A stretch of 31,191 nucleotides of DNA, from positions 1 through 31,191 of the IMG/VR virus record IMGVR_UViG_3300034418_013373; one strand, given 5' to 3'. Origin of the DNA: a virus. Made by a program: the position numbers and the translations under genes. Positions 1-29,608 of the stretch are shown piece after piece. The notes beneath the pieces were generated by a model. It was not told the DNA's origin. It searched no databases and saw nothing but the letters and a program-made list of their open reading frames with translations. How positions within the stretch are numbered: the stretch's first letter is position 1; every line of letters starts with the position of its first letter.

Positions 1-90
1 TCTAACTGACTTTTATATTATAGATCCTTAAATCTTTAATGTAAACAATTATTTTACATATTTTAAAATTTATTTTACATATTTTAAAAT
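1..90 (-). promoter_or_regulatory. Leftward sigma70-type promoter with operator palindrome (copy 1)
   Basis: On the minus strand TTTACA (45-40) is followed after exactly 17 bp by TATAAT (22-17). The palindrome ATGTAAA-N7-TTTACAT (39-59) covers the -35 box. Upstream lies an AT-rich block, ATTTTACATATTTTAAAAT, present twice in tandem (51-69 and 72-90), which could act as an UP element or extra binding site. Bases 1-69 match 564-632 at 63 of 69 positions without gaps, and all mismatches fall in the -10/-35 spacer. Transcription would run left out of the window, so the gene served is not visible. Confidence 0.75.
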
Positions 91-91
91 A

Positions 92-304
92 TTATATTTG
101 AGGAAAATAACCTAAAAGATTACCTTTATGCCATTTAAGGAAAAGAACTCTCTCTATTTTCCCTCTCATCTTTATACCATTAATTGTTATTCCGAAAATT
201 GGATCATATTTAATAAATTTTTGAGAAATAGTGTTTGCTATACCTTCTATCATTATAGTATCGCCCGGATTAACTTCGGAGGCATTAATAAATTCAATTT
301 TCAT
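92..304 (-). CDS. Small hypothetical protein, leftward early-type gene
   Basis: This is a 70-residue protein I do not recognise. It has alternating hydrophobic and polar residues and a VNPGDTIMIEG stretch near residue 11, which suggests a small all-beta fold, with a basic C-terminal third. It has no signal peptide or membrane segment. The start is supported by a 21-nt leader directly before the ATG that is identical to the leader of the next gene upstream (332-535), although the two proteins are not similar. It is probably transcribed together with 332-535 from the promoter at 580-608. Its position among small genes behind a regulated promoter suggests an early host-takeover or accessory role, which is inference only. 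Confidence 0.6.
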   Translation of the reverse strand: MKIEFINASEVNPGDTIMIEGIANTISQKFIKYDPIFGITINGIKMRGKIERVLFLKWHKGNLLGYFPQI

Positions 305-331: not shown

Positions 332-535
332 TTAATTAACAACATAACCGGCTTCAATAAAACCGTCACCATCAATAACTATTTGTTTACCTTCTTTTGT
401 GATTTTAGTATCTAAAATTGAAGTAAGTGTTTGACCGTAAAAATTAATAGTAAATTCAACTAATTGGTAAAATAAGTTTTCATCACCTTTTGGAGCTTTA
501 ACTTTTTCTAATTTTTTAATTTGTAAGTTTTTCAT
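332..535 (-). CDS. Small hypothetical protein, leftward early-type gene
   Basis: This is a 67-residue protein with no family recognised. It is lysine-rich at the N terminus (about residues 6-16), followed by aromatic and beta-prone segments, and has no membrane segment. It is the first gene behind the leftward promoter at 580-608, with a leader of about 40 nt. The start ATG is fixed by the leader it shares with the downstream gene 92-304. There is no Shine-Dalgarno sequence. A small early phage protein is the best description available. Confidence 0.6.
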   Translation of the reverse strand: MKNLQIKKLEKVKAPKGDENLFYQLVEFTINFYGQTLTSILDTKITKEGKQIVIDGDGFIEAGYVVN

Positions 536-563: not shown

Positions 564-640
564 TCTAACTGACTTTTATATTATAGATCTCTACTTTTTA
601 AATGTAAACAATTATTTTACATATTTTAAAATATATTTTA
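564..640 (-). promoter_or_regulatory. Leftward sigma70-type promoter with operator palindrome (copy 2)
   Basis: On the minus strand TTTACA (608-603), 17 bp, TATAAT (585-580). The palindrome ATGTAAACAATTATTTTACAT spans 602-622 and is followed by the ATTTTAAAAT block at 623-632. It drives 332-535 and probably 92-304. It is divergent from the rightward promoter at 658-686, so a protein bound here could affect both. Confidence 0.8.
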
Positions 641-645
641 TTTTT

Positions 646-687
646 TGCAATTTAAGGTTTACAAATAAGAAATTGCATTTTATAATT
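646..687 (+). promoter_or_regulatory. Rightward sigma70-type promoter for the HTH gene
   Basis: TTTACA (658-663), a 17-bp spacer, TATAAT (681-686), about 35 bp before the ATG at 721. The -35 box sits between the arms of an inverted repeat, TGCAATTT (646-653) and AAATTGCA (670-677), a possible second operator. The box sequences match those of the leftward promoters exactly. Confidence 0.75.
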
Positions 688-720: not shown

Positions 721-921
721 ATGTCTACTGATGATTTAATGTCTTTAGAAGAAATACAAGCTTTGCTTAAAGATAAGAAGCTTTATGTGATTGCAGAAGC
801 TACAGGATTAACTTATCCGACTCTTAAAAAGCTTGCTGATGGTAAAAAAGCTAATTATACTTATGGTACTTTACTGAAAGTAACAAACTATCTAAGACCT
901 ACTAAAACTACGGCAAATTAA
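721..921 (+). CDS. Small Cro/CI-like helix-turn-helix regulator
   Basis: This 66-residue protein has a compact helix-turn-helix fold. Residues about 22-36 (VIAEATGLTYPTLKK) read as the two HTH helices, with a turn at GLT and a recognition helix rich in Tyr, Thr and Lys. They are followed by ADGKKANYTYGTLLKVTNYL, the typical tail of XRE/Cro-type domains. Such small proteins bind DNA as dimers and repress phage promoters. It is divergently transcribed from the repeated promoter/operator at 564-640, which makes it the prime candidate to bind the ATGTAAA...TTTACAT palindromes; that link is inference. It has no Shine-Dalgarno sequence, and its leader AAATTAAAATAAAT (706-719) recurs before the next gene at 957-970. 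Confidence 0.8.
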   Translation: MSTDDLMSLEEIQALLKDKKLYVIAEATGLTYPTLKKLADGKKANYTYGTLLKVTNYLRPTKTTAN

Positions 922-977: not shown

Positions 978-3287
978 ATGGTTAAAAATTCTATTATTGA
1001 CCAATATCTTTCAGCTGGTAAAAACTTAATGCCTTTAGATGTTAAAATACCTAGAAAGAATTGGAGAACTACAATATTTTCTAGTGAACAGCTTCATAGC
1101 CACAATAGCAATATTGGTTGGCAAATAGGTTTTAAAGATCTTGTTGTTGATGTTGATCCTAGGAATAATGGAGATAAGAGTTGGGCTAAATTATGTGAAA
1201 GATTTAATTTAGATTTAACCCCTACAGTTAAAACGCCTAGAGGTGGTTATCATTATTATTTAAAGATTCCTGAAAAATACAATGATTATTCTTTCAAGAA
1301 AACTTTAAAAGAATATGAGGGTGTTGATTTTTTAACTGAAGGATCTTATTGCCTAATAACTTCTTGCTCAACTGATAAAGGTGATTATGTTTGGTGCGAT
1401 GATTTATTTGGTAAATTCGAACAACAAGAAACCCCTGAAGCAATATTTAATCTTATTGCTTACAAATTAGAAACTAATGACTTAGGAGATTTTGAAGGTT
1501 TAATCGGTGGTAAATCTGCTAATTGGTCCGAAGATAAAGTATTAGAAATGCTTGAAAAACTTGATCCATCAATGGGAAATGATGAATGGGTTAAAGTTGG
1601 AATGGCTTTGCATGATTGGGACCCAGTTAAGGGTTTAGATTTATGGGAAGATTGGAGTCAAGACGGTGATAATTATGAAGAAGGAATGACAGAAACCAGG
1701 TGGAAGAGTTTTGATGTTTCTGGCGGTGTTACTCTTGGCACTATATCTTATATGGTTAAAGAAGTTAATTATGATGAAGCTTCCGAGCAAGTAAATAGAT
1801 ATTTAGATAAGATTAAATATGCTAATGAAAAGGATTTAGAGTTTGAATTAATACCTAAAATTAAAAAGCATAACTTTTCTAAGATTAATCTTGAGAAGAT
1901 TGTAAAAGCTATTCAAGATAGATATAAAGATATTTCTAACGTAAAAATCCCGATAAGCAATATCAGGAATCTTTTAAGCGGTGTTGAAATAATTAATGGA
2001 ACTTTTGTTGAAGAAGGTGAAGCGCCTGATTGGTGTAAAGAATGGGTTTATATTAATAGTCATACAGCCTTTGCAAATCTTAATACTTTAAAGATATTAA
2101 AAACAGAAGCTTTTAATATTAAAAATGGTAAACACGTTCCTCCTTCTGTTAATGGCTCAAAACAATCAGCAGCTAAATATATTGCTGATAGCGGTTTTAT
2201 TGATACCGTTGATGCAATGGCTTATTTACCTAATACTCATGAGCCTGTTGTTGAAATAGATGAATATAAAGTATTAAATTGTTTTAATCCTAAAACAGTT
2301 CCTACAGCAGCAATTGAATATTCTGAAGAAGGAAGAGCCGCAATAAGTTTAGTTAAAAAACATATTAAATTTATTTGCACGACTAAAAATAATAGCGATA
2401 TTTTTACTCAATGGCTAGCTCATCAAGTGCAATTTCCAGGTAAACAAATCCTTTGGAGTCCGGTTATTCAATCAATTCAAGGTGTAGGTAAATCATTTTT
2501 TGGCGAATTACTTAGATGTTGTTTAGGTGATAGGAATGTAGGAACAGTAAGCCCCGGACAAGTTGTAAGTGATTTTAATGGTTGGGCTACAAATGTTAGT
2601 GTGAATGTTTTAGAAGAATTAAGGGTAAAAGGACATAATAGATATGATGCTATTAATAGTTTAAAACCTTTAGTTACTGATCGGATGATTCAAATTAATG
2701 ATAAAGGTGTAAAGCAATATATGACTTACAACACAACTAATTATATTTGTTTTACTAACTATAAAGACTCATTGCCTATTGATCAAGATGATCGAAGATG
2801 GTGGATAATATTTACTCAAATAGAATCATTAAATGAATTAGTTGAATATGTAGGCGAAAGTGCTGAAACATATTTTCCTAAACTATTTGGAGCGGTTAGA
2901 ACTTACGGTAATGAAATTAGAAAATGGTTATTGGAATATAAATTATCTGATGAATTTTTAGCTATAAAACAAGCCCCTATGACTGATGATAAACTTTCTA
3001 TGATTGCAACTGAAGAATCTTCTTTTGAAGGGTATTCAGAATTAAAAGAATTGATCGAAAAAGGGGGAAAATATTACAATAAAGAGGTTGTTTCTTCATC
3101 AGATTTATTCGATGCTTTGCTTTTTGAATATCCGGATTTAGACATTCAAACTAGTAAAAAACATCTTTTGATGAAAAAATTAGGATTTAGTGCTGTTGCA
3201 AAACCGATAAAAATTGACGGAAAAGCGAGAAGAATTTGGCGAAAGAAAAATTACTCTAATGAAAAAATTAGAGAATTATTAAAATAA
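978..3287 (+). CDS. Primase-polymerase / helicase replication protein
   Basis: This 769-residue multidomain replication protein is likely the phage replisome core, able to make primers and unwind DNA. Residues about 5-150 form an archaeo-eukaryotic-type bifunctional primase/polymerase domain: VVDVD carries the paired acidic residues D58 and D60, TPRGGYHYY contains H92, and VDFLTEGSY has D117 as the likely third metal ligand. Residues about 183-260 resemble the PriCT-2 domain (W204, W214 and W223 with the GGVTLGTISYM end). Residues about 430-680 form a superfamily 3 / DUF5906-type helicase core with Walker A GVGKS at 502-506 and an acidic NVLEEL strand. The C-terminal ~100 residues are basic and may form a winged-helix domain. 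The gene is followed by a possible terminator and an origin-like region. Confidence 0.9.
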   Translation: MVKNSIIDQYLSAGKNLMPLDVKIPRKNWRTTIFSSEQLHSHNSNIGWQIGFKDLVVDVDPRNNGDKSWAKLCERFNLDLTPTVKTPRGGYHYYLKIPEKYNDYSFKKTLKEYEGVDFLTEGSYCLITSCSTDKGDYVWCDDLFGKFEQQETPEAIFNLIAYKLETNDLGDFEGLIGGKSANWSEDKVLEMLEKLDPSMGNDEWVKVGMALHDWDPVKGLDLWEDWSQDGDNYEEGMTETRWKSFDVSGGVTLGTISYMVKEVNYDEASEQVNRYLDKIKYANEKDLEFELIPKIKKHNFSKINLEKIVKAIQDRYKDISNVKIPISNIRNLLSGVEIINGTFVEEGEAPDWCKEWVYINSHTAFANLNTLKILKTEAFNIKNGKHVPPSVNGSKQSAAKYIADSGFIDTVDAMAYLPNTHEPVVEIDEYKVLNCFNPKTVPTAAIEYSEEGRAAISLVKKHIKFICTTKNNSDIFTQWLAHQVQFPGKQILWSPVIQSIQGVGKSFFGELLRCCLGDRNVGTVSPGQVVSDFNGWATNVSVNVLEELRVKGHNRYDAINSLKPLVTDRMIQINDKGVKQYMTYNTTNYICFTNYKDSLPIDQDDRRWWIIFTQIESLNELVEYVGESAETYFPKLFGAVRTYGNEIRKWLLEYKLSDEFLAIKQAPMTDDKLSMIATEESSFEGYSELKELIEKGGKYYNKEVVSSSDLFDALLFEYPDLDIQTSKKHLLMKKLGFSAVAKPIKIDGKARRIWRKKNYSNEKIRELLK

Positions 3288-3676: not shown

Positions 3677-4117
3677 ATGGCACAAAAAGATTTAATTCCT
3701 GTTACCCAAAGAACCAAAGAGGAAGCAAAGAAAATTAGTAGCAATGGTGGAAAAAAATCCGGAGAGGCTAGAAGGAAGAAAAGAGACTTGAAAGAACGCT
3801 TTAAAATTGCTTTAGAATTTATGGGAAATGAAAAAGCAAAAGCTCTTAAAAAATCTGGCCAATTAGATAAAGCCGCATTAGTAAAAGAAGTAGGCTTAGA
3901 AGTTTATTCTCTATTAGAAATTGCGAGCAATACTTTAATTGATGAAAAAGTTCAAGCTTCAGCATGGAATGATGTAATGGACAGAACAGAAGGTAAACCC
4001 GTTCAGAAAAATATTCTTGATGCTACAGTAAATGAATCTCAAGAACTTTCTGATAAGGAAAAAGAATTAATTGATAGGCAAATTGCAAAGCAAGCTAAAA
4101 AACTAAAGAATGACTGA
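3677..4117 (+). CDS. Putative terminase small subunit
   Basis: This 146-residue, highly charged helical protein sits immediately before and overlaps the large terminase gene. The N-terminal third has the segment SNGGKKSGEARRKKRDLKE (residues about 23-41), a glycine/lysine/arginine pattern common in phage proteins encoded in front of large terminases and likely to contact DNA. The rest is helical with a lysine-rich C-terminal tail. Small subunits recognise the packaging site and recruit the motor. The assignment rests mostly on position and the basic motif, so it is less firm than that of the large subunit. There is no Shine-Dalgarno sequence, and the start is in an AAAAAATG context. Confidence 0.7.
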   Translation: MAQKDLIPVTQRTKEEAKKISSNGGKKSGEARRKKRDLKERFKIALEFMGNEKAKALKKSGQLDKAALVKEVGLEVYSLLEIASNTLIDEKVQASAWNDVMDRTEGKPVQKNILDATVNESQELSDKEKELIDRQIAKQAKKLKND

Positions 4118-5615
4118 TCTTTATAATACTGATACATTAGATCACCTCGTTCAGAGCAAGTTAAGCTGCTTTTATGAGCAATCTTTTCCTAAATTTGACG
4201 CCGGAGAGGTTTATTTAGATAATTGGTATATTGAGCTCCTGTGTGAGTATTTAGAGGCATTTGGTAGAGGTGAAATTAAAAACCTTAATATCAATATCCC
4301 TCCTAGATTTGGTAAATCAGCTTTATGCAATGTTGCTTTTTCGATGTGGTTACTAGGCCATAATCCTAAAATGAAAATAATAACTATTTCTTATGGTGCA
4401 ACATTATCTCAAAAATTACATGGTTACGGTCGAGCAATTTCAAATACTTCTTGGTATAAAAGGGCTTTTCCTAGATTTAAAATTGATAATTCTGCTAAGT
4501 TTGGAAAGATTGATGAAAGCGAAACTAAAAATACTCAAAGCCAATTTATTACAACTGAAGGAGGTTTTAGAATAGCTGCTTCAACAAATGGAGCATTAAC
4601 AGGTGAAGGTGGTAATATTTTAATCTTTGATGATTTAATGAATCCGGCTGAAGCTTTATCAGTAACACAAAGAGAATCAGCTTTAAATTGGACTAGAGGA
4701 ACTGCTTTTTCCAGGTTTAATAATAGGAAGCTAGGTCAAAAGCTTAATATTCAACAAAGATTAGGCGATGAAGATTTTACAGGAACTTTTGTTGATGATG
4801 GATGGGAAAATGTAATTATTCCTATTCAAGCAAGACAAACTAAAATTTATAGTTTTGGTGATGTTGTTAAAGTTTATAAGAAAGGTGAATTTATAGAGCC
4901 TAGAAGGTATGGGCCTAATGAAATGAAGCAAGATAGAATTGATATGGGTTCTAAAGTTTATGAAGCTCAATTCTTTCAAGAGACAGAGCCAGACGACGGC
5001 GAAGTATTTAAAAAAGAATGGTTTAAATACTGGATGTTTTTGCCTAAGATGGATTATTATGCTATTTATGCTGATACTGCTTCAAAGGAAGGAAGGGACA
5101 ATGACTATACTGTTTTTATGTGTTGGGGACTTCTTACTAAAAATGGAAGAAAATACGCATATTTGATTGATGTTTATAGGGAGAAAGTAACAACCCCTAA
5201 GCTTTTAAAGGCTTCTAAAGAGTTCTGGTTAAAGCATAAAAATAATGAATATAAAGTTCCATTGATTAAATTTGCTGTTGAAGATAAATCTTCCGGCATA
5301 GGATTAATTCAATTGTTAGAAGATGAGACAAATATACCAGTTACTAAATTAATTCCTGAAAAGGATAAGGTGGCTAGAGCTAATGATATACTGCCTAGAA
5401 TGGAATCATCACAAGTTTTATTTCCTAAAGATGCTCCATTCTTAGCAATATTAGAAAAAGAATTGCTTCTTTTTTCATCTAAAAAGAACAATAATAAAAA
5501 AGATCAGGTTGATACACTGACTTATGCAATAAAAGATTTACTTTTTGATCCTGAAGATGATAAAAATAAACCTTTAAACTATTCGGCTTTAATAAACGAA
5601 GTTAATAAATTATGA
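4110..5615 (+). CDS. terL: Terminase large subunit
   Basis: The 501-residue packaging motor has an ATPase and a nuclease domain. The Walker A variant is PPRFGKS at 64-70, Walker B is ILIFDD at 170-175, and a coupling-motif-like QQRLGD lies at 215-220. The C-terminal RNase H-like nuclease shows D321 in YADTAS, E391/D392 in VEDKSSG and the DQVD acid pair at 465-468. Length and motif order are normal for the family. It cuts concatemeric DNA and pumps it into the prohead through the portal encoded next. The gene overlaps its upstream neighbour by 8 nt and the downstream portal gene by an ATGA stop/start, which implies translational coupling. Confidence 0.95.
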   Translation: MTDLYNTDTLDHLVQSKLSCFYEQSFPKFDAGEVYLDNWYIELLCEYLEAFGRGEIKNLNINIPPRFGKSALCNVAFSMWLLGHNPKMKIITISYGATLSQKLHGYGRAISNTSWYKRAFPRFKIDNSAKFGKIDESETKNTQSQFITTEGGFRIAASTNGALTGEGGNILIFDDLMNPAEALSVTQRESALNWTRGTAFSRFNNRKLGQKLNIQQRLGDEDFTGTFVDDGWENVIIPIQARQTKIYSFGDVVKVYKKGEFIEPRRYGPNEMKQDRIDMGSKVYEAQFFQETEPDDGEVFKKEWFKYWMFLPKMDYYAIYADTASKEGRDNDYTVFMCWGLLTKNGRKYAYLIDVYREKVTTPKLLKASKEFWLKHKNNEYKVPLIKFAVEDKSSGIGLIQLLEDETNIPVTKLIPEKDKVARANDILPRMESSQVLFPKDAPFLAILEKELLLFSSKKNNNKKDQVDTLTYAIKDLLFDPEDDKNKPLNYSALINEVNKL

Positions 5616-6961
5616 CAAACAAAAATAAAATATCTAAAATAACTAATGTGGATAATACTGATGAAGCATTAAATACTGATGGTTATGTTGATTGCGCTAA
5701 AAAATTAGGCACAAGAAAATCAGGCAATACTGGCTTTTCATTAAATTTAGGCGATGATTCATTATTTGCTGCTTTATATACAGGAAATGGATTAACTAAA
5801 AGATATATTGATCTTTTAAGTGATGATATGACTCGTCAATGGGTTACTATTCCTGAAGATACTGACGGAATAATTTTAAATTATCTTGAAAGATTAAAAG
5901 CTAAGAAAGAATTTAAAAATGCTTTAAGGGCTTCAAAATTATTCGGTGGATCAATTATCTTTATGGTTATAGATGATGGCGGAGAGCCCAACGATCCTGT
6001 AAATGTCAATAATATTAGATCAGTTCAAAAGCTTAAATTCTTTAGTAGAAAATATGTTACTATTGATACTTTGAATTATTATACTGATGCAGCAAGCCCT
6101 AAGTTTGGTGATCCTGAATTCTTTACGGTAACAAGTGGAAGCCAGGTATTAACTATTCATGAAAGTAGATGTTTAGTTTTTAGAGGAGAATATTATCCTT
6201 TTGATGAATTAGGATTGCAAACAAATTATGAAACTTATTGGGGATTATCAATATTACAATCAATCCATGAAGAATTAGAAGATTATGGATTAGCTCAGCA
6301 AGCTTTAATGAGATTATTAACTAAAGCAAATATTGATGTTCTAAAGATCAAAGGTTTAATGGGTTTATTATCAACTCCAGATGGTTTAAAACAATTAGAT
6401 GCAAGAATAACAAGTTTTGATTTAGCTAAATCAGTTTCAACAACATTACTTTTAGATAATGAAGAAAATTTTGATTCAGTAAATCAAACATTAACTGGAG
6501 TTGCTGAAACTTTTACTAAATCTCAAACCGCTTTATTTGGTGTTATGGGTGTTCCTCCAATGCTATTTGGTATTCAAGGAAAATCTTTAGGCGGTAATGA
6601 TGATAACCAATTAAGATTATATTATGATAGAATAAAATCTGATCAAGATGAAGAAATGCTTGATCCTTTTGATAAATTAAAAGGTTATATTGTTAAAGCT
6701 AAAGACTCTAAAGTTAATGAGAATCAAGAATATAATATTAAGTTTAATTCTTTATGGCAACAAACAGAAAATGAAAAAGTTACTATGAGAAAAGAACAAG
6801 CAGAGACTGATCAGATTTATATTAATAATGGGGTTGTAGGTCCTGAAGAAGTTAGGGAAAGTAGATTTGGAGGAGGAACTTACTCTATTGAAACTGAAGC
6901 AGAAGGCGAAGTTGATTTAGGAGAAATACCTCAAGAACCTAAAGCAAAAGAAAATGAGTAA
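5612..6961 (+). CDS. Portal protein, DUF1073 family
   Basis: This 449-residue protein is the dodecameric ring through which DNA enters the head and to which the neck attaches. It matches the DUF1073 portal family: the N-terminal TGNGLTKRYIDLLSDDMTRQW segment (residues about 53-73) is typical of portals that begin by removing paired membrane or DNA sites. The central GVPPMLFGIQGKSLGGNDD segment (about 314-332) precedes a YYDRIKSDQDE helix. The C terminus is acidic. Databases now name this family after Acb1 anti-CBASS proteins, but this protein has normal portal length and I see no paired HxT/HxS phosphoesterase motifs. It overlaps the large terminase gene by 4 nt. Confidence 0.9.
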   Translation: MTNKNKISKITNVDNTDEALNTDGYVDCAKKLGTRKSGNTGFSLNLGDDSLFAALYTGNGLTKRYIDLLSDDMTRQWVTIPEDTDGIILNYLERLKAKKEFKNALRASKLFGGSIIFMVIDDGGEPNDPVNVNNIRSVQKLKFFSRKYVTIDTLNYYTDAASPKFGDPEFFTVTSGSQVLTIHESRCLVFRGEYYPFDELGLQTNYETYWGLSILQSIHEELEDYGLAQQALMRLLTKANIDVLKIKGLMGLLSTPDGLKQLDARITSFDLAKSVSTTLLLDNEENFDSVNQTLTGVAETFTKSQTALFGVMGVPPMLFGIQGKSLGGNDDNQLRLYYDRIKSDQDEEMLDPFDKLKGYIVKAKDSKVNENQEYNIKFNSLWQQTENEKVTMRKEQAETDQIYINNGVVGPEEVRESRFGGGTYSIETEAEGEVDLGEIPQEPKAKENE

Positions 6962-7160
6962 ATTAATTCATACTAAAGATAAAACTCAAATTTATTTAAA
7001 CGAACTTGATAATGAAATAATAATTGATATTGACGAGCATTCTATGCACAATGATATAAGTTCTAGAATTATTTTTTCAGGTTGTTTAAGATATGAATAT
7101 TGTAAAAGTTTTTTAAAAACTAATTATTCTATTGAATTAGATAATTTTATTGAAGATTAA
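6954..7160 (+). CDS. Hypothetical 68-residue protein in the head operon
   Basis: This small acidic protein is of no family I recognise. It overlaps the portal gene's end by 8 nt (ATGAGTAA) and ends 1 nt before the next gene's ATG, so it fits tightly into the operon and is likely translated by coupling. It contains two cysteines and several aromatic residues and lacks membrane segments. Its place between portal and Mu F-like genes suggests a head-assembly or accessory function, but no sequence feature shows this. Confidence 0.6.
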   Translation: MSKLIHTKDKTQIYLNELDNEIIIDIDEHSMHNDISSRIIFSGCLRYEYCKSFLKTNYSIELDNFIED

Positions 7161-7161
7161 T

Positions 7162-8022
7162 ATGGCTTTAAATCCAATATTCAAACAACAAGCTTTACTT
7201 GCTAATAATGGTAAAGTTAAGGTTAGAAAGAATTTTGCTAAATGGCTTTATCCTCACAATGCTCAAAGAACTTACGAAAAAGAATTAGTAGCATTAAATA
7301 AGCAATTAAGCAGAATAGCTTTGCAAAATGTTATTGATTTATTGCCTTCTTTAGTTGAAGAAGCTAAGGTTGAAAGGGGTGATAATTCTGAATTAAAATT
7401 AGATTTAGGGTTAGTTGATTCAATTAAAGAAATAACTAAAGCAACCCTTTTTGATTACAATTCTTTTGTAAGTGATCCAACACTAAATGAGCTAACAGGC
7501 CAACAAGCTGCTAGAATATCAAATTATAATAAAGGGCAATTAGTTAAAGTAATTCATTCAGCGGTTAAAGTTAATCCTATAATGGCCGAGCCTTATTTGA
7601 GGCCACAAATAGAATTATTTCAAGCTCAAAATTCAGCATTAATTAAAAAATTATCAGCGGAACAAGCTACTAGAATGGAAGGAACTCTATTTAGAAATTT
7701 GTCAGCTGGTAATGGTGTTAAAGTAATTAGGGAAGAATTACAAAAGAATTTTGAAATAAGTGAGAATAGAGCAAGACTAATTGCCAGGGATCAAACAAAT
7801 AAATTTAATGGTGATTTAGCTCAATTAAGACAACAGGAATTAGGAATAGGCGAATATTGGTGGTCAGGTTCTTTAGATGAAAGAGAAAGACAAACCCATT
7901 TAGATAATGAAGGTAAACATTTTGCATGGAATAAACCGTCACTTATTACAGGCCACCCAGGTTCACAAATAAGATGCAGATGTACTGCTCAGCCTATACT
8001 AACTGATGAAATGTTTCTTTAA
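7162..8022 (+). CDS. Minor head protein, phage Mu gpF-like
   Basis: This 286-residue minor capsid/head-morphogenesis protein is encoded right after the portal, as in Mu-like and SPP1-like phages. The C-terminal domain (about 170-280) holds the family pattern: ARLIARDQTNKFNG, then a YWWSGSLDERERQTH segment, GKHFAW, HPGSQIRCRC and a final TAQPIL. The RCRC cysteines and nearby histidines are the conserved signature. The N-terminal half is helical. I chose ATG 7162 over an upstream in-frame TTG at 7150 because it gives the AATATG context used by neighbours and avoids overlapping the previous stop. Confidence 0.88.
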   Translation: MALNPIFKQQALLANNGKVKVRKNFAKWLYPHNAQRTYEKELVALNKQLSRIALQNVIDLLPSLVEEAKVERGDNSELKLDLGLVDSIKEITKATLFDYNSFVSDPTLNELTGQQAARISNYNKGQLVKVIHSAVKVNPIMAEPYLRPQIELFQAQNSALIKKLSAEQATRMEGTLFRNLSAGNGVKVIREELQKNFEISENRARLIARDQTNKFNGDLAQLRQQELGIGEYWWSGSLDERERQTHLDNEGKHFAWNKPSLITGHPGSQIRCRCTAQPILTDEMFL

Positions 8023-8032
8023 CTTAAAAATA

Positions 8033-8062
8033 GTGTCATTTTAGCTTAGAATGCGCTATAAT
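8033..8062 (+). promoter_or_regulatory. Candidate internal promoter for the lipoprotein gene
   Basis: GTGTCA (8033-8038, 4 of 6 matches to TTGACA), 18 bp, then a perfect TATAAT (8057-8062), 40 bp before the lipoprotein start. It lies in an 80-bp gap, whereas most neighbouring head genes are separated by a few bases. Confidence 0.55.
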
Positions 8063-8102
8063 TGGTTTATATGTTTACTTTAAAAACTTAAAAGCTAATA
8101 TT

Positions 8103-8585
8103 ATGAAAATATTTACAATTGTAATTTTACTATTTACTGTATCTTGTACTTCATTAAGTCAATTTGCTTTGAAGGTAGATTTTGAACAAAGATTAAAAGA
8201 AAATACATTTGATTCAGATCTTTCTTTAAGAAAAACTAATGAAAAGGTAGATAAAGTAGAGTTAATAAGATTAGAAGAGATTAAAGATATACCAACAACT
8301 TTGGTTGCATTATCTGTAGATTTAGAAGGTTATGCAGTTACGCATATTACTAAATTTGCAACTGATGAAATGTTTGTTGTTGATGAACAAAGTCTAAAAG
8401 ATTTTGCTAAATCTAAAAATTCTAATTTAGTTGTTTACATTGAAATAAAAGACGTGTTAAGGTATAATTTATACAATGACAATAAAACGATAAAAGTTAT
8501 AGAAAGAAAAGGAACGAAATTATTTAATGCTTTTCTATTTTCTAAAGTGAATATAGATGGTTCAAGAAAGATAAACATTAATTAA
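8103..8585 (+). CDS. Putative lipoprotein, moron-like insertion in the head operon
   Basis: This 160-residue protein has a short lipoprotein signal: MK, the hydrophobic run IFTIVILLFTV, then S-C with C15 as the likely lipidated cysteine. The lipobox T-V-S-C has a non-optimal threonine at -3. The mature part is charged, with alternating beta-prone segments and no repeats. No family is recognised. It interrupts the conserved order Mu F-like protein / DUF2213 protease, and has its own candidate promoter upstream. Independent promoters and envelope targeting are hallmarks of phage moron genes, which often alter the host surface or block superinfection; that role is inference. It could also be a virion or lysis-linked lipoprotein. 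Confidence 0.65.
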   Translation: MKIFTIVILLFTVSCTSLSQFALKVDFEQRLKENTFDSDLSLRKTNEKVDKVELIRLEEIKDIPTTLVALSVDLEGYAVTHITKFATDEMFVVDEQSLKDFAKSKNSNLVVYIEIKDVLRYNLYNDNKTIKVIERKGTKLFNAFLFSKVNIDGSRKININ

Positions 8586-8590
8586 AGATT

Positions 8591-9766
8591 GTGACTAAAG
8601 ACAATATAACAATTGACAGCTTAAAATTAGATGGCTTAGATACTGTTGAAGCTGTAAGATATGATAATCTAAACTTAGATGAAGGAAAGCTAACTAAAAC
8701 CGATGAAGGTTATTTAGAAGGTTTTGCTATTGCTACCAGAACTGGAGTTTTTAATTATGTAAGAGCTGATGGTTCAATCCAAAGAGAGTTAAGACTTCCT
8801 GAAGAAGTATTTAAAGAAGATGCAATTAACTCTTTCAAAATGCTCCCTATTACAAACGATCATCCAAAAGAAGAAGTAAATGCTGATAATGTAAAAGAAC
8901 TTTCTGTTGGATATACAGGGGAAGAAATAAAGAAGCAAGATAATTTTTTAGTTACAAAATTAAAAATAACTGATAAAACTGCTATAGAACAAATTAATGC
9001 TGGTAAACGCGGCCTTTCTTATGGATATAAAGTTAATCTAGTTAAGAAAGATGGTATTTACAAGGGTGAACGATATGATCATGTTCAAACTGGCATTAAA
9101 GGGAATCATTTGGCCATTGTTTATCAAGGCCGAGCTGGTGATAAAGCTAAGCTTAGACTTGATGGGCAGGACGCCATGTGTGTTTTTAATAACTTCAATA
9201 ATAACAATAATCTAATTATGAAAAAATATAAGCTAGATGGAAAAGAAATTGAAGTTTCAGAGGAAGTCTTTTCAAGACTTGATACTCTTGAAACAGAAAT
9301 TACTTCTCTTAAAAACACTGAAAAGGAATCAAAAAATAAGATCGATTCTTTGGAAGGCGAAAAAGACGCTTTAAAAGTAGAGAAAGATGCTTTGAAAGTA
9401 AAATTAGACGAATTATCTAAAAAAGATGATTCAGAAGAAATTGCTGAAAAAGTTAAAGCTAGAATTTCTTTAGAAAAAAAGTGTGCTGAATTTTTGAAAG
9501 AAGATGAAGATATTTCTTCTCTTTCAGATTCAGAACTTAAATCTAAAGTTATTTGTGCATTTTCTCCAGAATTTAAATCTGATGAAAAAAGCGAAGAATA
9601 CTTAACTGCTAGATTTGATGCTATTTTAGATCTTAAAAAAGATTCTAAACTAGCTGCAAATTTCAAAGTTGCAAGCAATAAAAAAGATTCTGATGAGTCT
9701 AAAATTGCTGTTAGCAATTCTGATTTACAAGCAGATTTAATTAAAAGATCAACCTTAAATAAATAA
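8591..9766 (+). CDS. DUF2213 prohead protease-like protein fused to a scaffold-like C terminus
   Basis: The protein has 391 residues. Residues about 20-195 match DUF2213, a family found next to capsid genes and thought to act in prohead maturation: GYLEGFAIATRTGVFNY, LPITNDHP near 96-103, LSVGYTGE, GKRGLSYGY and a late GIKGNHLAIV segment with conserved histidines. An asparagine-rich linker (NNFNNNNN, about 200-207) leads to a highly charged coiled-coil-like region (about 215-345), typical of scaffolding proteins. The start is GTG; the next in-frame methionine lies far inside the conserved domain. An in-frame ATG at 9218 may start a separate scaffold. It is followed by cement and capsid genes. 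Confidence 0.85.
   Translation: MTKDNITIDSLKLDGLDTVEAVRYDNLNLDEGKLTKTDEGYLEGFAIATRTGVFNYVRADGSIQRELRLPEEVFKEDAINSFKMLPITNDHPKEEVNADNVKELSVGYTGEEIKKQDNFLVTKLKITDKTAIEQINAGKRGLSYGYKVNLVKKDGIYKGERYDHVQTGIKGNHLAIVYQGRAGDKAKLRLDGQDAMCVFNNFNNNNNLIMKKYKLDGKEIEVSEEVFSRLDTLETEITSLKNTEKESKNKIDSLEGEKDALKVEKDALKVKLDELSKKDDSEEIAEKVKARISLEKKCAEFLKEDEDISSLSDSELKSKVICAFSPEFKSDEKSEEYLTARFDAILDLKKDSKLAANFKVASNKKDSDESKIAVSNSDLQADLIKRSTLNK
9218..9766 (+). CDS. Possible nested scaffold protein from an internal in-frame start
   Basis: ATG 9218 is codon 210 of the DUF2213 gene and is preceded by AATAATCTAATT, the same AT-rich TAATT-ATG context seen at most true starts in this phage. The product would be 182 residues, lysine/glutamate-rich and coiled-coil-like, which fits an internal scaffold for the prohead. 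Nested scaffolds made from an internal start in the protease gene are known (lambda Nu3 inside C). The asparagine-rich stretch just upstream looks like former intergenic sequence now read through. Confidence 0.5.
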   Translation: MKKYKLDGKEIEVSEEVFSRLDTLETEITSLKNTEKESKNKIDSLEGEKDALKVEKDALKVKLDELSKKDDSEEIAEKVKARISLEKKCAEFLKEDEDISSLSDSELKSKVICAFSPEFKSDEKSEEYLTARFDAILDLKKDSKLAANFKVASNKKDSDESKIAVSNSDLQADLIKRSTLNK

Positions 9767-9771
9767 TTATT

Positions 9772-10533
9772 ATGTCTATTATAAAATATCAAGATTATTA
9801 CGACGTTGGCCAAGCTGGTCAAGTTGCAACTTTAGAAGATTCTAATATCAAAACAAGAAACGCTCAAGAAGTTATCGGTTTTGGTAAAGGGGTTGTTAAA
9901 GGTTCCACTGGCGGAACTGATGTTAAGAATATTGCTAAAAATATAGCAACTCTTGATTTCGATGCTGACTTTGTAACTTCAAATACTATCAACTTAAATG
10001 TTAATGGTGTTGCAATTTCTGAAGTAACTTTTGACACTGACCAAGCTACTACAAAAGCTGCTTTGGTTGCTGCAATTGATGCTTTAACAGGAATTAGTGC
10101 TGTTGATGCTGCTTCAAGAGCAATCACAATTACAACTGATGCTGGTGATAATATTACCGTTTCAGATATTGTTGTTGCTGCTGGTGCTTCTCAAGCTAAT
10201 GGTTCTGTTGCTTATACTTCTTCAGATGTTGTTGAAGGAATTAGTGCTTTAAGACATGGCCAACCAGTAACTATTGGCGGCGATGATGCTTACCAAATTA
10301 ATGATGCTGTTAATGTTTTAACTAAAGGCGTTATTTGGGTAAATGTTATTGCTACTGTTGCTTATGGTGATTCAGTTTATATCGCTAACGATAAAACAGA
10401 TTCTGCAAATCAAGGTAACTTTACAAATGCTTCTAGTGGAAACTTAGCTGTTTCTTCTGCTAAATTTGTAAGTGCTGCGACTGGAACAACTGGAACTCCT
10501 GCTTTAGCAAAAGTAGAAATTAACCAACCGTAA
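9772..10533 (+). CDS. Head decoration / structural cement protein with inserted domain
   Basis: This 253-residue protein, encoded directly before the major capsid, resembles structural cement (Gp24-like) proteins that stabilise the capsid surface. The frame is split: residues 1-65 and about 148-253 look like the cement protein (GQVATLEDSNIKTRNAQE at the start; LRHGQPVTIGG, GVIWVNV and GDSVYI later). Residues about 66-147 form an Ala/Thr/Val-rich beta-alpha-beta insert (NVNGVAISEVTF, then a helix, then ITITTDAGDNITV). A similar insert occurs in the baseplate protein at 20583-22028. It starts 5 nt after the previous stop, with no Shine-Dalgarno sequence. Confidence 0.75.
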   Translation: MSIIKYQDYYDVGQAGQVATLEDSNIKTRNAQEVIGFGKGVVKGSTGGTDVKNIAKNIATLDFDADFVTSNTINLNVNGVAISEVTFDTDQATTKAALVAAIDALTGISAVDAASRAITITTDAGDNITVSDIVVAAGASQANGSVAYTSSDVVEGISALRHGQPVTIGGDDAYQINDAVNVLTKGVIWVNVIATVAYGDSVYIANDKTDSANQGNFTNASSGNLAVSSAKFVSAATGTTGTPALAKVEINQP

Positions 10534-10559
10534 TTAATAACTTAAAAATTAGTAAAACA

Positions 10560-11588
10560 ATGACTATTAAAACTTTTAAATTAGATAATGGAGAGGAGTT
10601 GAAAATCGACACTTCTTCAAGTGAGTTTAAAGCTTACGAAAGAGCGGCAGAGCAAGTCGGTATTGTAAAAAATGATGAAGCATTCTTTTTTGCAAGAAAC
10701 CTTGAATTTATCCGTCAAAAAATATTCACTCCAGTATATGCTGAATTGAAATTATTGAATGGTGGTTTACTACCAATTAATAGTGCAATTCCAGAAGGCG
10801 CTGAAACTGATACTTATGATGTTTTGGATTCTTCAGGTGAAGCTGATGTTATCGGTGATTTTGCTGATGATATTAATACTGTTGAAGTATTTGGCGAAGA
10901 AGAAACCAATAAGATCAAGTCAATCGCTGATGCTTATATCTATTCTGTACAAGATATGAGACGCGATAAAATGCTTAATCGTCCTGGTCATTCTGTTGTT
11001 ACCAATAAAGCTTTAGCTGCTAGACGTGCTGTTGATCAAAAAATCGAGAAAATGCTTGGTTTTGGTGATTCAAGATATGGAATTACTGGTATGTTCAACA
11101 ATGCTAATGTGCCTAATGCTGCTGTTGCTGCAACTGGTACCGGTTCTTCAACTTTATGGACAACTAAAACTGCTCAACTAATTTTAGACGATGTTGCTTC
11201 AGCAATGGACGACATGGACGATATTAGTAAAGGTAATGAAATGGCTGATACTATGTTGCTTGATAATACTAATTATGAATTAATTAGAAAGAAAGCTCTT
11301 GATGTTACCAATTATTCTGGTATGTCAGTTCTTAAATATATCGAGCAAGAGTATAATTTGAAAGTTGTTAAAATGTCTCAACTTAAAAATGCTTTTGTTA
11401 GTGGTACTAAATCAGGTTTTTGTCTTTATAATAATTCTCAAGAAAAACTTGAAGGTGTATTACCAATAAGAATGATGCCTCACGCTCCACAAGTTAAAAA
11501 TCTTGCAACTAAGAATATCTTAGAAGCTAGATGCGGTGGAACAAGAGTATTCTTCCCTTATTCTGTATCTATCAATACTGGTATATAA
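10560..11588 (+). CDS. Major capsid protein, DUF2184 / HK97-fold family
   Basis: This 342-residue protein is the main shell component. Family features include FFFARNLEFIRQKIFTPVYAE near residues 42-62, a long acidic loop (TDTYDVLDSSGEADVIGDF), and the mid-region KALAARRAVDQKIEKMLGFGD, GITGMFNN, plus the C-terminal FFPYSVSINTGI with a MPHAP segment. The length fits a DUF2184 capsid without a cleaved prodomain. It is preceded by scaffold and cement genes and followed by a strong terminator-like hairpin, consistent with very high expression. Synonymous codons here are slightly less AT-biased (GGT, CGT, ATC), as expected for an abundant protein. Confidence 0.9.
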   Translation: MTIKTFKLDNGEELKIDTSSSEFKAYERAAEQVGIVKNDEAFFFARNLEFIRQKIFTPVYAELKLLNGGLLPINSAIPEGAETDTYDVLDSSGEADVIGDFADDINTVEVFGEEETNKIKSIADAYIYSVQDMRRDKMLNRPGHSVVTNKALAARRAVDQKIEKMLGFGDSRYGITGMFNNANVPNAAVAATGTGSSTLWTTKTAQLILDDVASAMDDMDDISKGNEMADTMLLDNTNYELIRKKALDVTNYSGMSVLKYIEQEYNLKVVKMSQLKNAFVSGTKSGFCLYNNSQEKLEGVLPIRMMPHAPQVKNLATKNILEARCGGTRVFFPYSVSINTGI

Positions 11589-11600
11589 TATTGAAAACTT

Positions 11601-11640
11601 AATCAGGAGGATAAATTATTCTCCTGATTATTTTATATTT
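11601..11640 (+). terminator. Intrinsic terminator after the major capsid gene
   Basis: Arms AATCAGGAG (11601-11609) and CTCCTGATT (11621-11629), both perfect 9-mers, with an 11-nt loop and a T-rich tail ATTTTATATTT. It would reduce transcription into downstream genes. The first arm contains AGGAGG, a Shine-Dalgarno-like sequence with no start codon near it. Confidence 0.75.
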
Positions 11641-11662
11641 ATTAACACAAAAAAGTATTAAC

Positions 11663-12130
11663 ATGAAAATATTAAAAAGAACTAAAGGCCTTTTAAGATT
11701 TAAAGTTTCAACAGGAACTATTACTTTAAAAGAAGGTGAAAATGAATTATCTGATGCTGAATCAAAATTAATTAAAGAACATCCTATGTATGAAGCTTTA
11801 GTTAAAACTTCAGGATTAGTTGAAGTTGCCGAAGCTCCGAAGCCAAAAGCTAAAACTGCTGCTCAAATTAAAGCAGAAAAAAAAGCTGCTAAAAAAGCTG
11901 AAGAGGAAAAATTAGCTGCTGAAGAAGCTGCTAATGCTGATTCTGAAGGTGAAGAAGATGAGTCTAAAGAAGATTCTGATTCTGAAGGCGAAGAAGGAAT
12001 TGATCTTTCTGATATTGATCTTAAAAAACAAGATAAAAAAGCTTTAGTTGAAATTGCTACTGCTTTAGAACTTGATACTAAAGGATTAAATGCTGATCAA
12101 ATCATCAAATTAATTGAAAGCAAAAAATAA
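11663..12130 (+). CDS. Head-associated protein with acidic linker and HeH/LEM-like C terminus
   Basis: The 155-residue protein has three parts. The N terminus (1-60) is basic to neutral and may bind the capsid. Residues about 60-120 are low complexity: lysine/alanine-rich, then strongly Glu/Asp/Ser-rich. The C terminus (about 120-155, LKKQDKKALVEIATALELDTKGLNADQIIKLIE) has the helix-extended loop-helix pattern of HeH/LEM/Rho-N-like folds, often seen in small phage proteins encoded after the major capsid gene. Its exact role is unknown; neck or head-completion accessory is likely. It shares one base with the next gene (TAATG). Confidence 0.65.
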   Translation: MKILKRTKGLLRFKVSTGTITLKEGENELSDAESKLIKEHPMYEALVKTSGLVEVAEAPKPKAKTAAQIKAEKKAAKKAEEEKLAAEEAANADSEGEEDESKEDSDSEGEEGIDLSDIDLKKQDKKALVEIATALELDTKGLNADQIIKLIESKK

Positions 12131-12486
12131 TGACAACTGCCCTTGAGTGGTTGGCATGTGTTGCTCCAGCAATTGATGCTGCTAATTCCACGGATGTAAA
12201 AAATAAGTTTATTGGTATAGCTACAAGCGAAATAGATGCTACTTTGTTTACTGAAACTAATACTTATAATATGGCCGTGGCTTATTATGCAGCTCATTTG
12301 TTGGAGCTTAGCTCTCGAGATGGTAATTCTCGAGGAGTTTTGACAATGGAAAAAGAAGGCGATTTGTCAAGAAGTTATGGGGGTGGAAGTAGCAAAGAAA
12401 CGAATAATACTCAATATTTAGATTCTTATAAAAGATTAATAAAGGCACGAGTGCCACAATTTTATATGCAAAGTGGCAGTTGTTAA
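12130..12486 (+). CDS. Head-tail connector, DUF4054 family
   Basis: This 118-residue helical adaptor probably binds under the portal. It has the DUF4054 pattern: alternating helices, an AVAYYAAHLLEL helix at about 48-59, then LTMEKEGDLSRSYGGGSS and an LDSYKRLIKAR segment near the C terminus. It starts at a TAATG overlap with the previous gene and its end overlaps the next start by 14 nt, consistent with a tightly coupled neck operon. Confidence 0.8.
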   Translation: MTTALEWLACVAPAIDAANSTDVKNKFIGIATSEIDATLFTETNTYNMAVAYYAAHLLELSSRDGNSRGVLTMEKEGDLSRSYGGGSSKETNNTQYLDSYKRLIKARVPQFYMQSGSC

Positions 12487-12940
12487 AACAAAAGATACAG
12501 GATTTAATAATTATAAAGATGCCTTTAAAGAATTAGATTCTAAAAAGGTTGCCGTAGGATTATTTGCTGATGTTGGCGATGAAGTTTTGACAAAAGGTGT
12601 TGTAAATGAGTTTGGTACAACTCAAGCAGGAAAAAATCATAATATTACTATTCCGGAAAGATCTTTTATCAGATCGACTTACAATAAAAATTATAAAAAA
12701 GTAGGGCGAAGGTTCGGTCAGATAGCTAAATCTATTTCTAATGGTAATTATAAAGTAAAAAGTAAATTAAAGCTTATAGGATTAGAGCAAGAAGCAGCTA
12801 TTAAAAAAGCAATGGTTGATTTAAGAACTCCGGCAAATGCTGAATCAACTATAAGAAAAAAAGGTTCATCAAATCCTTTAATTGACACAGGAGAAACTAG
12901 ATCTAAAATATCAAGCGAATTAAGAGGAGCAAATGAGTAG
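12473..12940 (+). CDS. Neck / virion morphogenesis protein (HK97 gp10- or Mu G-like)
   Basis: The protein has 155 residues and starts at GTG 12473 inside the previous gene; no ATG gives a full-length product. VAVGLFADVG (about 26-35), VVNEFGTTQ and a TIPERSFIRST segment (about 59-69) are the recurring pattern of phage neck/tail-completion proteins. The C terminus has DTGETRSKIS, which is also typical. It most likely sits at the head-tail junction or acts in tail completion. It overlaps the following gene by 8 nt. Confidence 0.75.
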   Translation: MAVVKTKDTGFNNYKDAFKELDSKKVAVGLFADVGDEVLTKGVVNEFGTTQAGKNHNITIPERSFIRSTYNKNYKKVGRRFGQIAKSISNGNYKVKSKLKLIGLEQEAAIKKAMVDLRTPANAESTIRKKGSSNPLIDTGETRSKISSELRGANE

Positions 12941-13304
12941 TTTTAGACAAACATTGACAGTCAAAAGAAAAGCTAGCGGTTCTTATAATGCTGCAGGATT
13001 TTTTGAAGTTACCGGAGCAGATTCTACATTTGAAATTCAAGCAAGTATTCAACCGATTTCAGGTAGTGATATGAAGTTATTGCCAGAAAATAGAAGAGAA
13101 GAAGAAATAACAAAATTATATACAGATACAAAATTGAATGGTATAATTAAAGGAAGTGGATTAAATCCTGATTTTGTTGTAATTGATGGAGTTGATCATG
13201 AAGTAATTAGGACTTTTAATTGGCGAAATAATGTGATTAACCATTATAAAGTTTTTGTTGCTAAGAGGGTAACAAATGACGCCGTACCACCAATAGGAGC
13301 TTAA
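12933..13304 (+). CDS. Putative head closure / neck protein
   Basis: This 123-residue beta-rich protein is placed where head closure or stopper proteins are encoded. FRQTLTVKRKASGSYNAAGFF at the start and ASIQPISGSDMKLLPENRREEE (about 37-58) fit the small beta-barrel neck proteins of this module, which seal the DNA-filled head before tail attachment. Unusually for this phage, it has a clear Shine-Dalgarno sequence, AGAGGAGCAA-ATG, inside the end of the upstream gene. Family identity is moderately certain from order and pattern. Confidence 0.65.
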   Translation: MSSFRQTLTVKRKASGSYNAAGFFEVTGADSTFEIQASIQPISGSDMKLLPENRREEEITKLYTDTKLNGIIKGSGLNPDFVVIDGVDHEVIRTFNWRNNVINHYKVFVAKRVTNDAVPPIGA

Positions 13305-13305
13305 T

Positions 13306-13845
13306 ATGTCAATAAATTTTATAGATTTAAAAACAAATATTGCAACTGTAATTACTACATTAACAAGTAAGCCGGTTATCTGGTCAGATCAGAATGCTCC
13401 TACTCCTGATGGTGATTATATTGTTTTAAAAATACCAACTGTTAGAAACCCGGGGGGAACAGATTGGGAAAGTAAGCCAAATGCTGCTGAAGAAATTGAG
13501 ACGCAAGGAGATAGAGAAGTAATTTTATCATTAATAGCTGTTGGTGAAACAGGAATGGATATTTTGACAAATTTAGATAGTTCTTTAAATTTAAGTTCCA
13601 ATTTAGAATTATTGTGTCAAAATAAATTAGCATATGTAGGATTAGAAAGTGAGGCTACTGATATAACAACTATTATTGGTAATAGTTTTGAAACAAGAGC
13701 TGCAGCTGAAATAATTTTTAGAATTTCTAAAAATTATTCTGCTGCAGGAGATACTGTTCCAGCTGTTACTTCTATAGATGTTGATGGCACTGCTCAAAGT
13801 GAGAATAGTGTTGATCCATTTTCTATAGAATTTACAGTGGATTAA
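13306..13845 (+). CDS. Neck terminator protein (gp12 / LIC_12616-like)
   Basis: This 179-residue protein directly precedes the sheath gene, the usual place of the neck terminator that caps the tail tube at the head end. It has a helix at residues 5-20, PVIWSDQNAPTPDGDYIVLKI (about 23-43), and a beta-hairpin region ending in VILSLIAVG, as in LIC_12616-type proteins. The last ~25 residues (VTSIDVDG..., about 154-179) look like an appended beta segment. The start has an AGGAG site in the previous gene (GGAGCTTAATATG). Confidence 0.7.
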   Translation: MSINFIDLKTNIATVITTLTSKPVIWSDQNAPTPDGDYIVLKIPTVRNPGGTDWESKPNAAEEIETQGDREVILSLIAVGETGMDILTNLDSSLNLSSNLELLCQNKLAYVGLESEATDITTIIGNSFETRAAAEIIFRISKNYSAAGDTVPAVTSIDVDGTAQSENSVDPFSIEFTVD

Positions 13846-13874
13846 TTTTTAATAATAATTAAAAGAAAATAAAT

Positions 13875-15155
13875 ATGTCAAATAAATTAGATCAGATAAT
13901 TGATATTTCAATTAGTCTTTCAACTAAAACCGTAACCCAACAAGGTTTTGGTATTCAGATGATTTTAGGTGAAAGCATGAAATTAGATAGAAGAGTAAAA
14001 AGTTATGCTAATGTAACTGAAGTTTTAGTTGATTTTGCTGAAACTGATACAGAATATAAAATGGCTCTTGCTGCTTTTTCACAAGAAAAAACTCCTCCTT
14101 CTGTTTATATCGGAAAAAAGATTGTTGCTACTTCAACAGCAATTACAGCCGCAACTAATCCTTCCGGAGATTTAGTTAATATTAATAAAACTGCTCATAA
14201 TTTAGAGTCAGGTGCTTCTGTAACAGTTACAGGATTTAATAAAGCTGAATATAATGGAACATTTGAAATTACTAAAATTGATGATGATAATTTCCAATAT
14301 ACAGCTGCTTCAACGCCTTCAGCAACTCCTGCTACCGGTTCAGGTTCTTATACTGCTCAAGAAACCTGGTCAAATGCAATTCAAAAATGTTTTGATTATG
14401 ATTCTACTTGGTATGGCTTAACAATTAGTTCAAATGTTGAAGCTGACATTTTAAGTGCTGCAGGTAAAGTTGAAGCTTTGAAAAGAGTATTTTTGGCTAG
14501 AACTTCTGATGCTGATAATTTAGATGTTGCTCAAACAGGAAGCTTAATGTATCAATTAAAAGCTTTAGGTTATGATAGAACTATGACTATTTATAATGGT
14601 GATACAGCTAGTTATTTTGCTGATGCTGCATGGTTTGGAAGAATGTTACCAACTGTTCCTGGTTCTTCAAACTGGGCATTTAAAACTTTATCTGGTATTG
14701 TTGCTGATGAATTATTATCTTCTGAATCAGGTGCTTCAGGAGTATTTGGTAATAATGGAAATACTTATGAATCTATTGCTGGAAATTCAGTTACTAGATA
14801 TGGTACTGTTGCAAGCGGTGAATATATTGACGTTATTCGTGGAGCTGATTGGTTACAAGCAAGACTTCAAGAAAATTTATATTCAACATTAATTAATGTT
14901 GAAAAAATACCTTATACTGATGCCGGTGGCGATATTATTGAAAATGACATTAGAGAAATTTTAGATATTGGTGTAGCTAATGGCTTAATTGCTTCTGATG
15001 CTGAAGGTAATGGTATTTATACAATTTTTGTTCCTGATGTTGCTGATATAGCTGAAGCTGATAGATTAGCCAGATTATTTTCAGGGGTAACTTTTGAAGC
15101 TACTTTAGCTGGTGCAGTTAATAAGATTGCCATTGCTGGTAACCTTTCCGTATAA
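13875..15155 (+). CDS. Tail sheath protein, DUF3383 family
   Basis: The 426-residue contractile sheath subunit defines this phage as a myovirus. The N terminus (LDQIIDISISLSTKTVTQQGFG and ILGES) and the C-terminal GVTFEATLAGAVNKIAIAGNLSV match the DUF3383 family, whose C-terminal strands interlock neighbouring subunits. Residues about 86-162 are an insertion: the segment around HNLESGASVTVTG, EYNGTFEI and NFQYT is a small beta domain of a kind that recurs in unrelated phage proteins, flanked by Ser/Thr/Ala-rich linkers. It would decorate the outer surface of the tail. It is followed by the tube gene 22 nt downstream. Confidence 0.9.
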   Translation: MSNKLDQIIDISISLSTKTVTQQGFGIQMILGESMKLDRRVKSYANVTEVLVDFAETDTEYKMALAAFSQEKTPPSVYIGKKIVATSTAITAATNPSGDLVNINKTAHNLESGASVTVTGFNKAEYNGTFEITKIDDDNFQYTAASTPSATPATGSGSYTAQETWSNAIQKCFDYDSTWYGLTISSNVEADILSAAGKVEALKRVFLARTSDADNLDVAQTGSLMYQLKALGYDRTMTIYNGDTASYFADAAWFGRMLPTVPGSSNWAFKTLSGIVADELLSSESGASGVFGNNGNTYESIAGNSVTRYGTVASGEYIDVIRGADWLQARLQENLYSTLINVEKIPYTDAGGDIIENDIREILDIGVANGLIASDAEGNGIYTIFVPDVADIAEADRLARLFSGVTFEATLAGAVNKIAIAGNLSV

Positions 15156-15177
15156 TAACTTTAAATAAAAATATATT

Positions 15178-15609: not shown

Positions 15610-15611
15610 TT

Positions 15612-18277: not shown

Positions 18278-18282
18278 ATATT

Positions 18283-18612: not shown

Positions 18613-18614
18613 TT

Positions 18615-20140: not shown

Positions 20141-20154
20141 AATAGAATAAAATT

Positions 20155-20526: not shown

Positions 20527-20554
20527 AGAAATTTTATTTAAAATTTAATTTCTT
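20526..20554. repeat. AT-rich inverted repeat between wedge genes
   Basis: AAGAAATT (20526-20533) and AATTTCTT (20547-20554) can pair. An alternative inner stem uses AAATTTT (20529-20535) and AAAATTT (20540-20546). It lies in a 56-bp gap, longer than the neighbouring spacers. There is no T-run, so it is not a clear terminator; it could be an mRNA processing or stability element. Confidence 0.35.
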
Positions 20555-20582
20555 ATGTAATAAACAAAAATTATTATAAACT

Positions 20583-29573: not shown

Positions 29574-29608
29574 ACGTTCCATTTATGATTAAATTAATAA
29601 TTATTTGT

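Follow-up and report, generated by a model that had tools for sequence, protein, structure and literature searches.

The window, a stretch of 31,191 nt, belongs to the IMG/VR record IMGVR_UViG_3300034418_013373, an aquatic phage. Its rightward genes include a terminase, a portal, a protease, a major head protein, a tape measure and a baseplate-type protein. Small leftward genes lie towards both ends, and the right end truncates a gene for an SNF2-type helicase. On the reading-frame map used, non-coding sequence makes up only about 6% of the window; all four leftward operator-promoters (sites 1 to 4) are intergenic. The features of the locus are as follows.

17-59, minus strand: operator-promoter 1, with the -10 box TATAAT (17-22), the -35 box TTTACA (40-45) and an N7 palindrome (39-59); predicted to fire off the left record end.
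60-90, minus strand: two copies of the A/T block upstream of site 1, and a one-mismatch second dyad (GTAAAATAAATTTTAA) at 63-78.
92-304, minus strand: 70-aa early gene, PHROG 3623, no assigned function.
332-535, minus strand: 67-aa early gene; the near-identical phage G2 has an unrelated 122-aa gene instead.
580-622, minus strand: operator-promoter 2, with -10 box (580-585), -35 box (603-608) and N7 palindrome (602-622); predicted to drive 332-535 and 92-304.
623-640, minus strand: upstream A/T block of site 2.
658-686, plus strand: putative divergent promoter of the HTH-primase operon, TTTACA-17-TATAAT, without a palindrome.
721-921, plus strand: 66-aa Cro/C1-type HTH protein, candidate regulator by PHROG match and predicted fold.
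978-3287, plus strand: primase-polymerase, by family matches (Prim-Pol, PriCT_2, DUF5906).
28925-29146, minus strand: 73-aa early gene, last in the unit after site 3.
29176-29403, minus strand: 75-aa early gene.
29415-29582, minus strand: 55-aa early gene, first after site 3; its counterpart in the relative G1 is 81% identical.
29609-29650, minus strand: operator-promoter 3, with -10 box (29609-29614), -35 box (29632-29637) and N6 palindrome (29631-29650) with one arm mismatch.
29661-29912, minus strand: 83-aa early gene, second after site 4.
29914-30189, minus strand: 91-aa early gene, first after site 4.
30245-30286, minus strand: operator-promoter 4, with -10 box (30245-30250), -35 box (30268-30273) and N6 palindrome (30267-30286).
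30313-31191, minus strand: SNF2-type helicase of the early arm by family matches, truncated by the record end.

An earlier, sequence-only reading of this DNA had described four minus-strand promoters of the form TTTACA-N17-TATAAT, and all four are exact (17-45, 580-608, 29609-29637 and 30245-30273). The palindrome ATGTAAA-N6/7-TTTACAT, which it had placed on the -35 box, is present at every site. It is perfect at sites 1 and 2 with N7 and at site 4 with N6, and has a single mismatch at site 3, where one arm reads ATGCAAA. The upstream block had been called conserved; three of the four sites have ATTTTAAAAT in exact form, and the copy at 29651-29660 deviates from it. A further copy stands in tandem at 81-90, upstream of site 1. 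About 21 bp, or two helical turns, upstream of the main dyad, several modules carry another dyad with one mismatch (GTAAAATAWATTTTAA), which may be a second operator or only part of the A/T-rich tract. Spacers differ overall, as had been stated, but sites 1 and 2 agree in the final four bases of the spacer and in the leader that follows, and are therefore partly copies of one cassette. The plus-strand promoter at 658-686, a fifth of the same -35/-10 form, was absent from the earlier list.

The 5' leader behind sites 1 and 2 (AGTCAGTTAGA, then CTTTAAAATGATAAAATTATG) also occurs in relatives (1-30 and 564-590, with 305-325 and 536-560); no obvious Shine-Dalgarno sequence was found in it. Position 1 of the window falls inside the repeated promoter-leader module. 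This record start is probably an assembly break at the repeat and not a genome end.

Several of the compared relatives are fragments. G1, a relative of 41.8 kb, has a primase 80% identical to that of the window. Its early arm of about 14 kb diverges from the HTH gene, the primase and the late genes and encodes a DUF2800 exonuclease, an Enc34-type single-strand DNA-binding protein, a DNA polymerase, a thymidylate synthase, a dCMP deaminase and the SNF2 helicase. L013 overlaps the right end of the window at 99.8% identity and extends into dCMP deaminase and thymidylate synthase genes. From the G1 gene order, the four window sites belong to one continuous leftward early arm that is interrupted by the record ends. 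To call the regulon scattered, as had been done, is misleading.

The early arm of G1 also encodes a Fic/Doc-domain protein (Pfam Fic, 30835-31320). A gene of the GapR DNA-binding family is located in the early arms of G1 (31444-31641), G10 (8691-8894) and L013 (13226-13429). Caulobacter was the sole carrier of a GapR-family gene among 14 control genomes, which hints at an alphaproteobacterial host. The head and baseplate genes of the window (4110-22028) suggest a contractile tail, but the replication arm, with the primase gene (978-3287), has the layout seen in the Casjensviridae phage BcepNazgul.

At least seven small genes had been placed under the control of the sites, and seven small leftward genes do follow them inside the window. 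Two are downstream of site 2 (332-535, 92-304), two downstream of site 4 (29914-30189, 29661-29912) and three downstream of site 3 (29415-29582, 29176-29403, 28925-29146). The proposal that they form a host-takeover or anti-defence set was not supported. The blocks that the operators precede in relatives contain genes for exonuclease, DNA polymerase, thymidylate synthase, dCMP deaminase and SNF2 helicase; the regulon in relatives takes in replication genes and not mainly host-takeover genes. Family searches recognised no anti-defence family, and none of their matches supports a part of the small genes in anti-defence or takeover.

The HTH gene is the first gene of the divergent operon; it marks the point of divergence and precedes the primase. 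Autoregulation is not evident in the window because the gene's own promoter has no palindrome. The protein matches the transcriptional regulator PHROG 18104 (E 4e-9), and a match to Pfam HTH_26 lies only below the cut-off of that family. The predicted model is a four-helix domain (pLDDT 83). Its nearest structures are Aca11, the N-terminal domain of AcrIIA15 and SinR, all weak matches with E > 0.001. The predicted fold is that of a Cro/C1-type HTH domain. The protein has relatives in 18 viral contigs, and the predicted recognition-helix region is nearly invariant. No relative was confirmed in bacterial and archaeal genomes, and none was present in sequenced phages at E < 0.01.

Ten third-order Markov simulations of the window yielded one match in total at ≤1 mismatch, compared with four real sites. 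The long form of the motif was found in only 13 stretches in 2.9 million viral contigs, each belonging to this phage family. The genomes of relatives were scanned with a matrix made from the four window sites, a check that the sequence-only reading had proposed. The operator sites of G1 and G2 are all located in the early arm, before genes in the early direction. G1 has five strong matches (23205, 24503, 25148, 33425 and 36229) and a weak one (31338), all in the early arm and its direction, and the only further match is the HTH operon's own promoter with a low score. A looser mismatch scan added a weak early-arm site at 27500. The matrix scan found zero operator sites in the late arm of G1. 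G2 has four sites (15086, 15593, 17510 and 18033) and a low-scoring shadow of one. The reversed-sequence control had no match at the matrix threshold. Since hits are confined to the early arm, the motif is not found at random genome sites, a distribution that would have spoken against the regulon.

The spacing of the dyad was counted as GTAAA-Nk-TTTAC over eight phage genomes carrying the HTH gene. Spacing k=6 gave 7 dyads and spacing k=7 gave 15, with about 0.65 expected for each (22 versus about 1.3 together), in counts that are not fully independent because close relatives, the window and G2 among them, were included. The other 14 spacings yielded 8 dyads altogether, and the enrichment is limited to k=6 and k=7. 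Dyads are kept in G8, L089 and L090, in which the HTH protein is 51-57% identical (about 50-57% overall) and the flanks differ. L089 and L090 have perfect dyads upstream of their HTH genes. G8 (57% identical, flanks different) has four k=6 sites by itself: one is intergenic, two overlap short predicted reading frames and one, which may be due to chance, is inside a long gene. Two G8 sites retain the dyad with poor -10 matches, outside a T4-type context. G11 has one exact dyad only, within or beside a reading frame, and G9 has the HTH gene and no exact dyad. The sequence comparison upheld the claim of one regulator on a leftward early regulon: even in relatives whose HTH protein is only about 50% identical, the operator accompanies the HTH gene, and the 721-921 protein is the best candidate. 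A shared operator read by a Cro-like repressor is the best reading and a likely one.

In early promoters of T4-like phages, GTTTAC occupies -36 to -31 and is preceded by an A-rich stretch at -40 to -44 (PMC1524935; see also PMC2988021). All four window sites have GTTTACA; the N7 sites have AAAA at -45 to -42, and in the N6 sites it is shifted one base closer. The TGn element of the T4 type is absent, with no TG at -15/-14 at any of the four sites. The putative window promoters are of the T4 type, a form also used by unrelated T4-like phages. Part of the conservation therefore needs no repressor, as the boxes and the A-rich tract match this known early promoter. The boxes and the palindrome had been taken together as the conserved mark of one regulon; this stands for the left palindrome arm, which is specific to the HTH family, but not for the boxes and the A-rich tract, which are T4-type.

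The sites could thus be plain strong T4-type promoters in which the A-rich tract serves the polymerase alpha subunits and the boxes serve sigma70, the palindrome being a by-product of GTAAAAT opposite GTTTAC. The placement of GTTTAC and the A-rich stretch is that of T4-like early promoters (PMC1524935; PMC2988021), and the conserved A/T block extends past -60. About 48 further stretches, in which family genes are missing or only distant, match a shorter form of the motif. Where examined, the gene behind the site suggests a T4-like phage: ribonucleotide reductase was found by similarity search, and other genes, judging from their protein starts, we take to encode polymerase, clamp and gp32. In T4-like aquatic phages (L025-L059, L061-L069 and L071-L075; e.g., L046:1050-1090 and L040:2361-2401), GTAAAATAnnnGTTTACAT-N16-TATAAT precedes replication and nucleotide genes; almost all of these sites are N7, and the spacers vary. 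The HTH homologue is absent from 28 T4-like records matching the short motif, whereas 17 of 20 family records contain it by the same search, and a regulator shared with these phages was rejected.

The left arm separates the two groups. Exact GTAAA at N6 or N7 is present in 14 of 31 GTTTAC promoters of the HTH family versus 1 of 47 in T4-like loci, a set that the pattern had not selected; the Fisher p of 3e-6 is optimistic, with close relatives within the family set, although identical spacers were counted once. Per-column information content was computed on sites picked by the boxes and so lends those columns no independent support. The restriction of the spacing enrichment to two values of k and the dyads of G8 beside poor -10 boxes also speak against a by-product. 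Plain promoters are for these reasons an unlikely explanation. The left-arm counts and the distribution of the HTH gene indicate a widespread promoter type with an operator that belongs to the HTH-bearing phages. The T4-like comparison further shows that a repressor should be proposed only once conservation of the promoter has been told apart from conservation of the operator.

The mechanism considered most likely, and probably the correct one as judged from sequence, is immediate firing by the host polymerase followed by collective shut-off by the HTH protein. Each site would be a strong sigma70 T4-like early promoter with a GTAAA-N6/7-TTTAC dyad operator laid on its -35 box. Host RNA polymerase would fire all sites at entry and express the early arm, with its genes for replication and nucleotide metabolism and its small accessory genes. 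The 66-aa HTH protein would accumulate from the divergent primase operon, and its dimers would occupy the dyads, block the -35 boxes and silence the early arm collectively. The degenerate second dyad about 21 bp upstream may assist. We infer the binding and dimerisation of the HTH protein, repression rather than activation, and the timing. Repression by exclusion is the usual outcome of an operator on a near-consensus -35 box. The coexistence of N6 and N7 dyads speaks against a single-dimer repressor, since it is unusual for one dimer.

The HTH protein might instead bind the dyad as an activator that contacts sigma70 from a centre near -40. By sequence, the dyad centre is indeed near -40, and class II activators usually bind at about -41.5. 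However, the boxes, 17 bp apart, are already near-consensus, and an activated early arm could not start before a protein from the divergent operon had been made; activation is very improbable. The TyrR box has the consensus TGTAAA-N6-TTTACA with G and C 14 bp apart, boxes over the -35 repress tyrP and aroG (PMC4374768), and the window matches the box in 12 of 12 positions at 30268-30285 and nearly so at 29632-29649. A host regulator such as TyrR, linking early phage genes to the host state, is nevertheless the most remote of the readings and was rejected as the main one: the N7 of sites 1 and 2 is the wrong spacing for the G-N14-C of TyrR (PMC4374768), the dyad tracks the phage HTH gene within this phage family, and a search of 257 Gb of bacterial and archaeal genomes matched the N7 operator-promoter only twice.

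Apart from shut-off by the HTH repressor, the operator-promoter-leader modules would double as exchange points for early gene cassettes. The window and G2 (L079) are 99.89% identical over 15,159 bp. The identity stops at window position 535 (G2 15159), where the gene behind operator-promoter 2 has its start codon. The genes beyond this point in the window and in G2 have no similarity to each other, and the same module reappears before the next gene beyond the breakpoint. Several genes behind modules are without counterpart in the compared relatives. G16 (L106) has a complete operator-promoter at 4864 (cassette 4843-4910) between the terminase and primase genes, oriented in the early direction and opposite to the late genes. 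Gene shuffling at promoter early stem-loops (PeSL) is reported for T4-like phages (PMC4503421), which makes a second parallel with T4. As in PeSL-type exchange, an early promoter sequence lies at the boundary of the exchanged genes in the window and G2. By sequence comparison, the modules look like recombination joints for early gene swaps. If this is true, the module provides a rule for spotting early accessory genes in metagenomic phages and predicts swap positions. A possible history, put forward tentatively, is that the lineage fused a T4-like strong promoter with a Cro-like operator and copied the module along the early arm, as a regulon-wide off switch and a landing pad that would bring newly captured early genes under this control, in phages with no recognised lysogeny genes.

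The components are familiar, and the regulon itself appears undescribed. Among the results listed from the open-access literature, none on the early control of Casjensviridae, or on Cro-type operators repeated within lytic phages, describes this arrangement. T4-type early promoters and PeSL likewise have the A-rich tract, GTTTAC and TATAAT in many copies before early genes and apparent gene-shuffling cassettes (PMC1524935; PMC4503421). They differ in that the dyad over the -35 box is tied to a phage HTH gene in the window family and that the window sites have no TGn. Phage repressors of the Cro/CI type are also small HTH proteins at a divergent control region with dyads over early promoters; here, in contrast, copies of the operator stand in front of many units of the early arm, and the proteins screened included no recognisable integrase or CI-like gene product.

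In the repressor-stoperator system of mycobacteriophages, one repressor binds many genome-wide sites (PMC9283540). Stoperators are asymmetric and also affect elongation, whereas the sites of the window family are dyads in intergenic promoters of the early arm. Aca regulators include the best sequence and fold matches of the HTH protein, Aca11 and the N-terminal domain of AcrIIA15. Unlike in Aca systems, the HTH gene precedes a primase in the window and relatives, and the sites are spread along the early arm; no acr gene was recognised near the HTH gene in the window and relatives. The gene order is shared with BcepNazgul (Casjensviridae), the Vibrio phages LP.1 and 1.017.O and the Xanthomonas phage FoX4, in which a small gene followed by the primase diverges from an exonuclease-to-helicase arm. 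The small gene is annotated as 'putative cro protein' in FoX4 and as 'DNA-binding domain protein' in 1.017.O. Homology of the HTH protein to the small proteins before the primase in Nazgul, LP.1, R16L, 1.017.O, PIN2 and FoX4 was not detectable. If the HTH protein shuts all promoters, it would provide a compact one-protein early-to-late switch in phages with a replication arm like that of BcepNazgul and LP.1.
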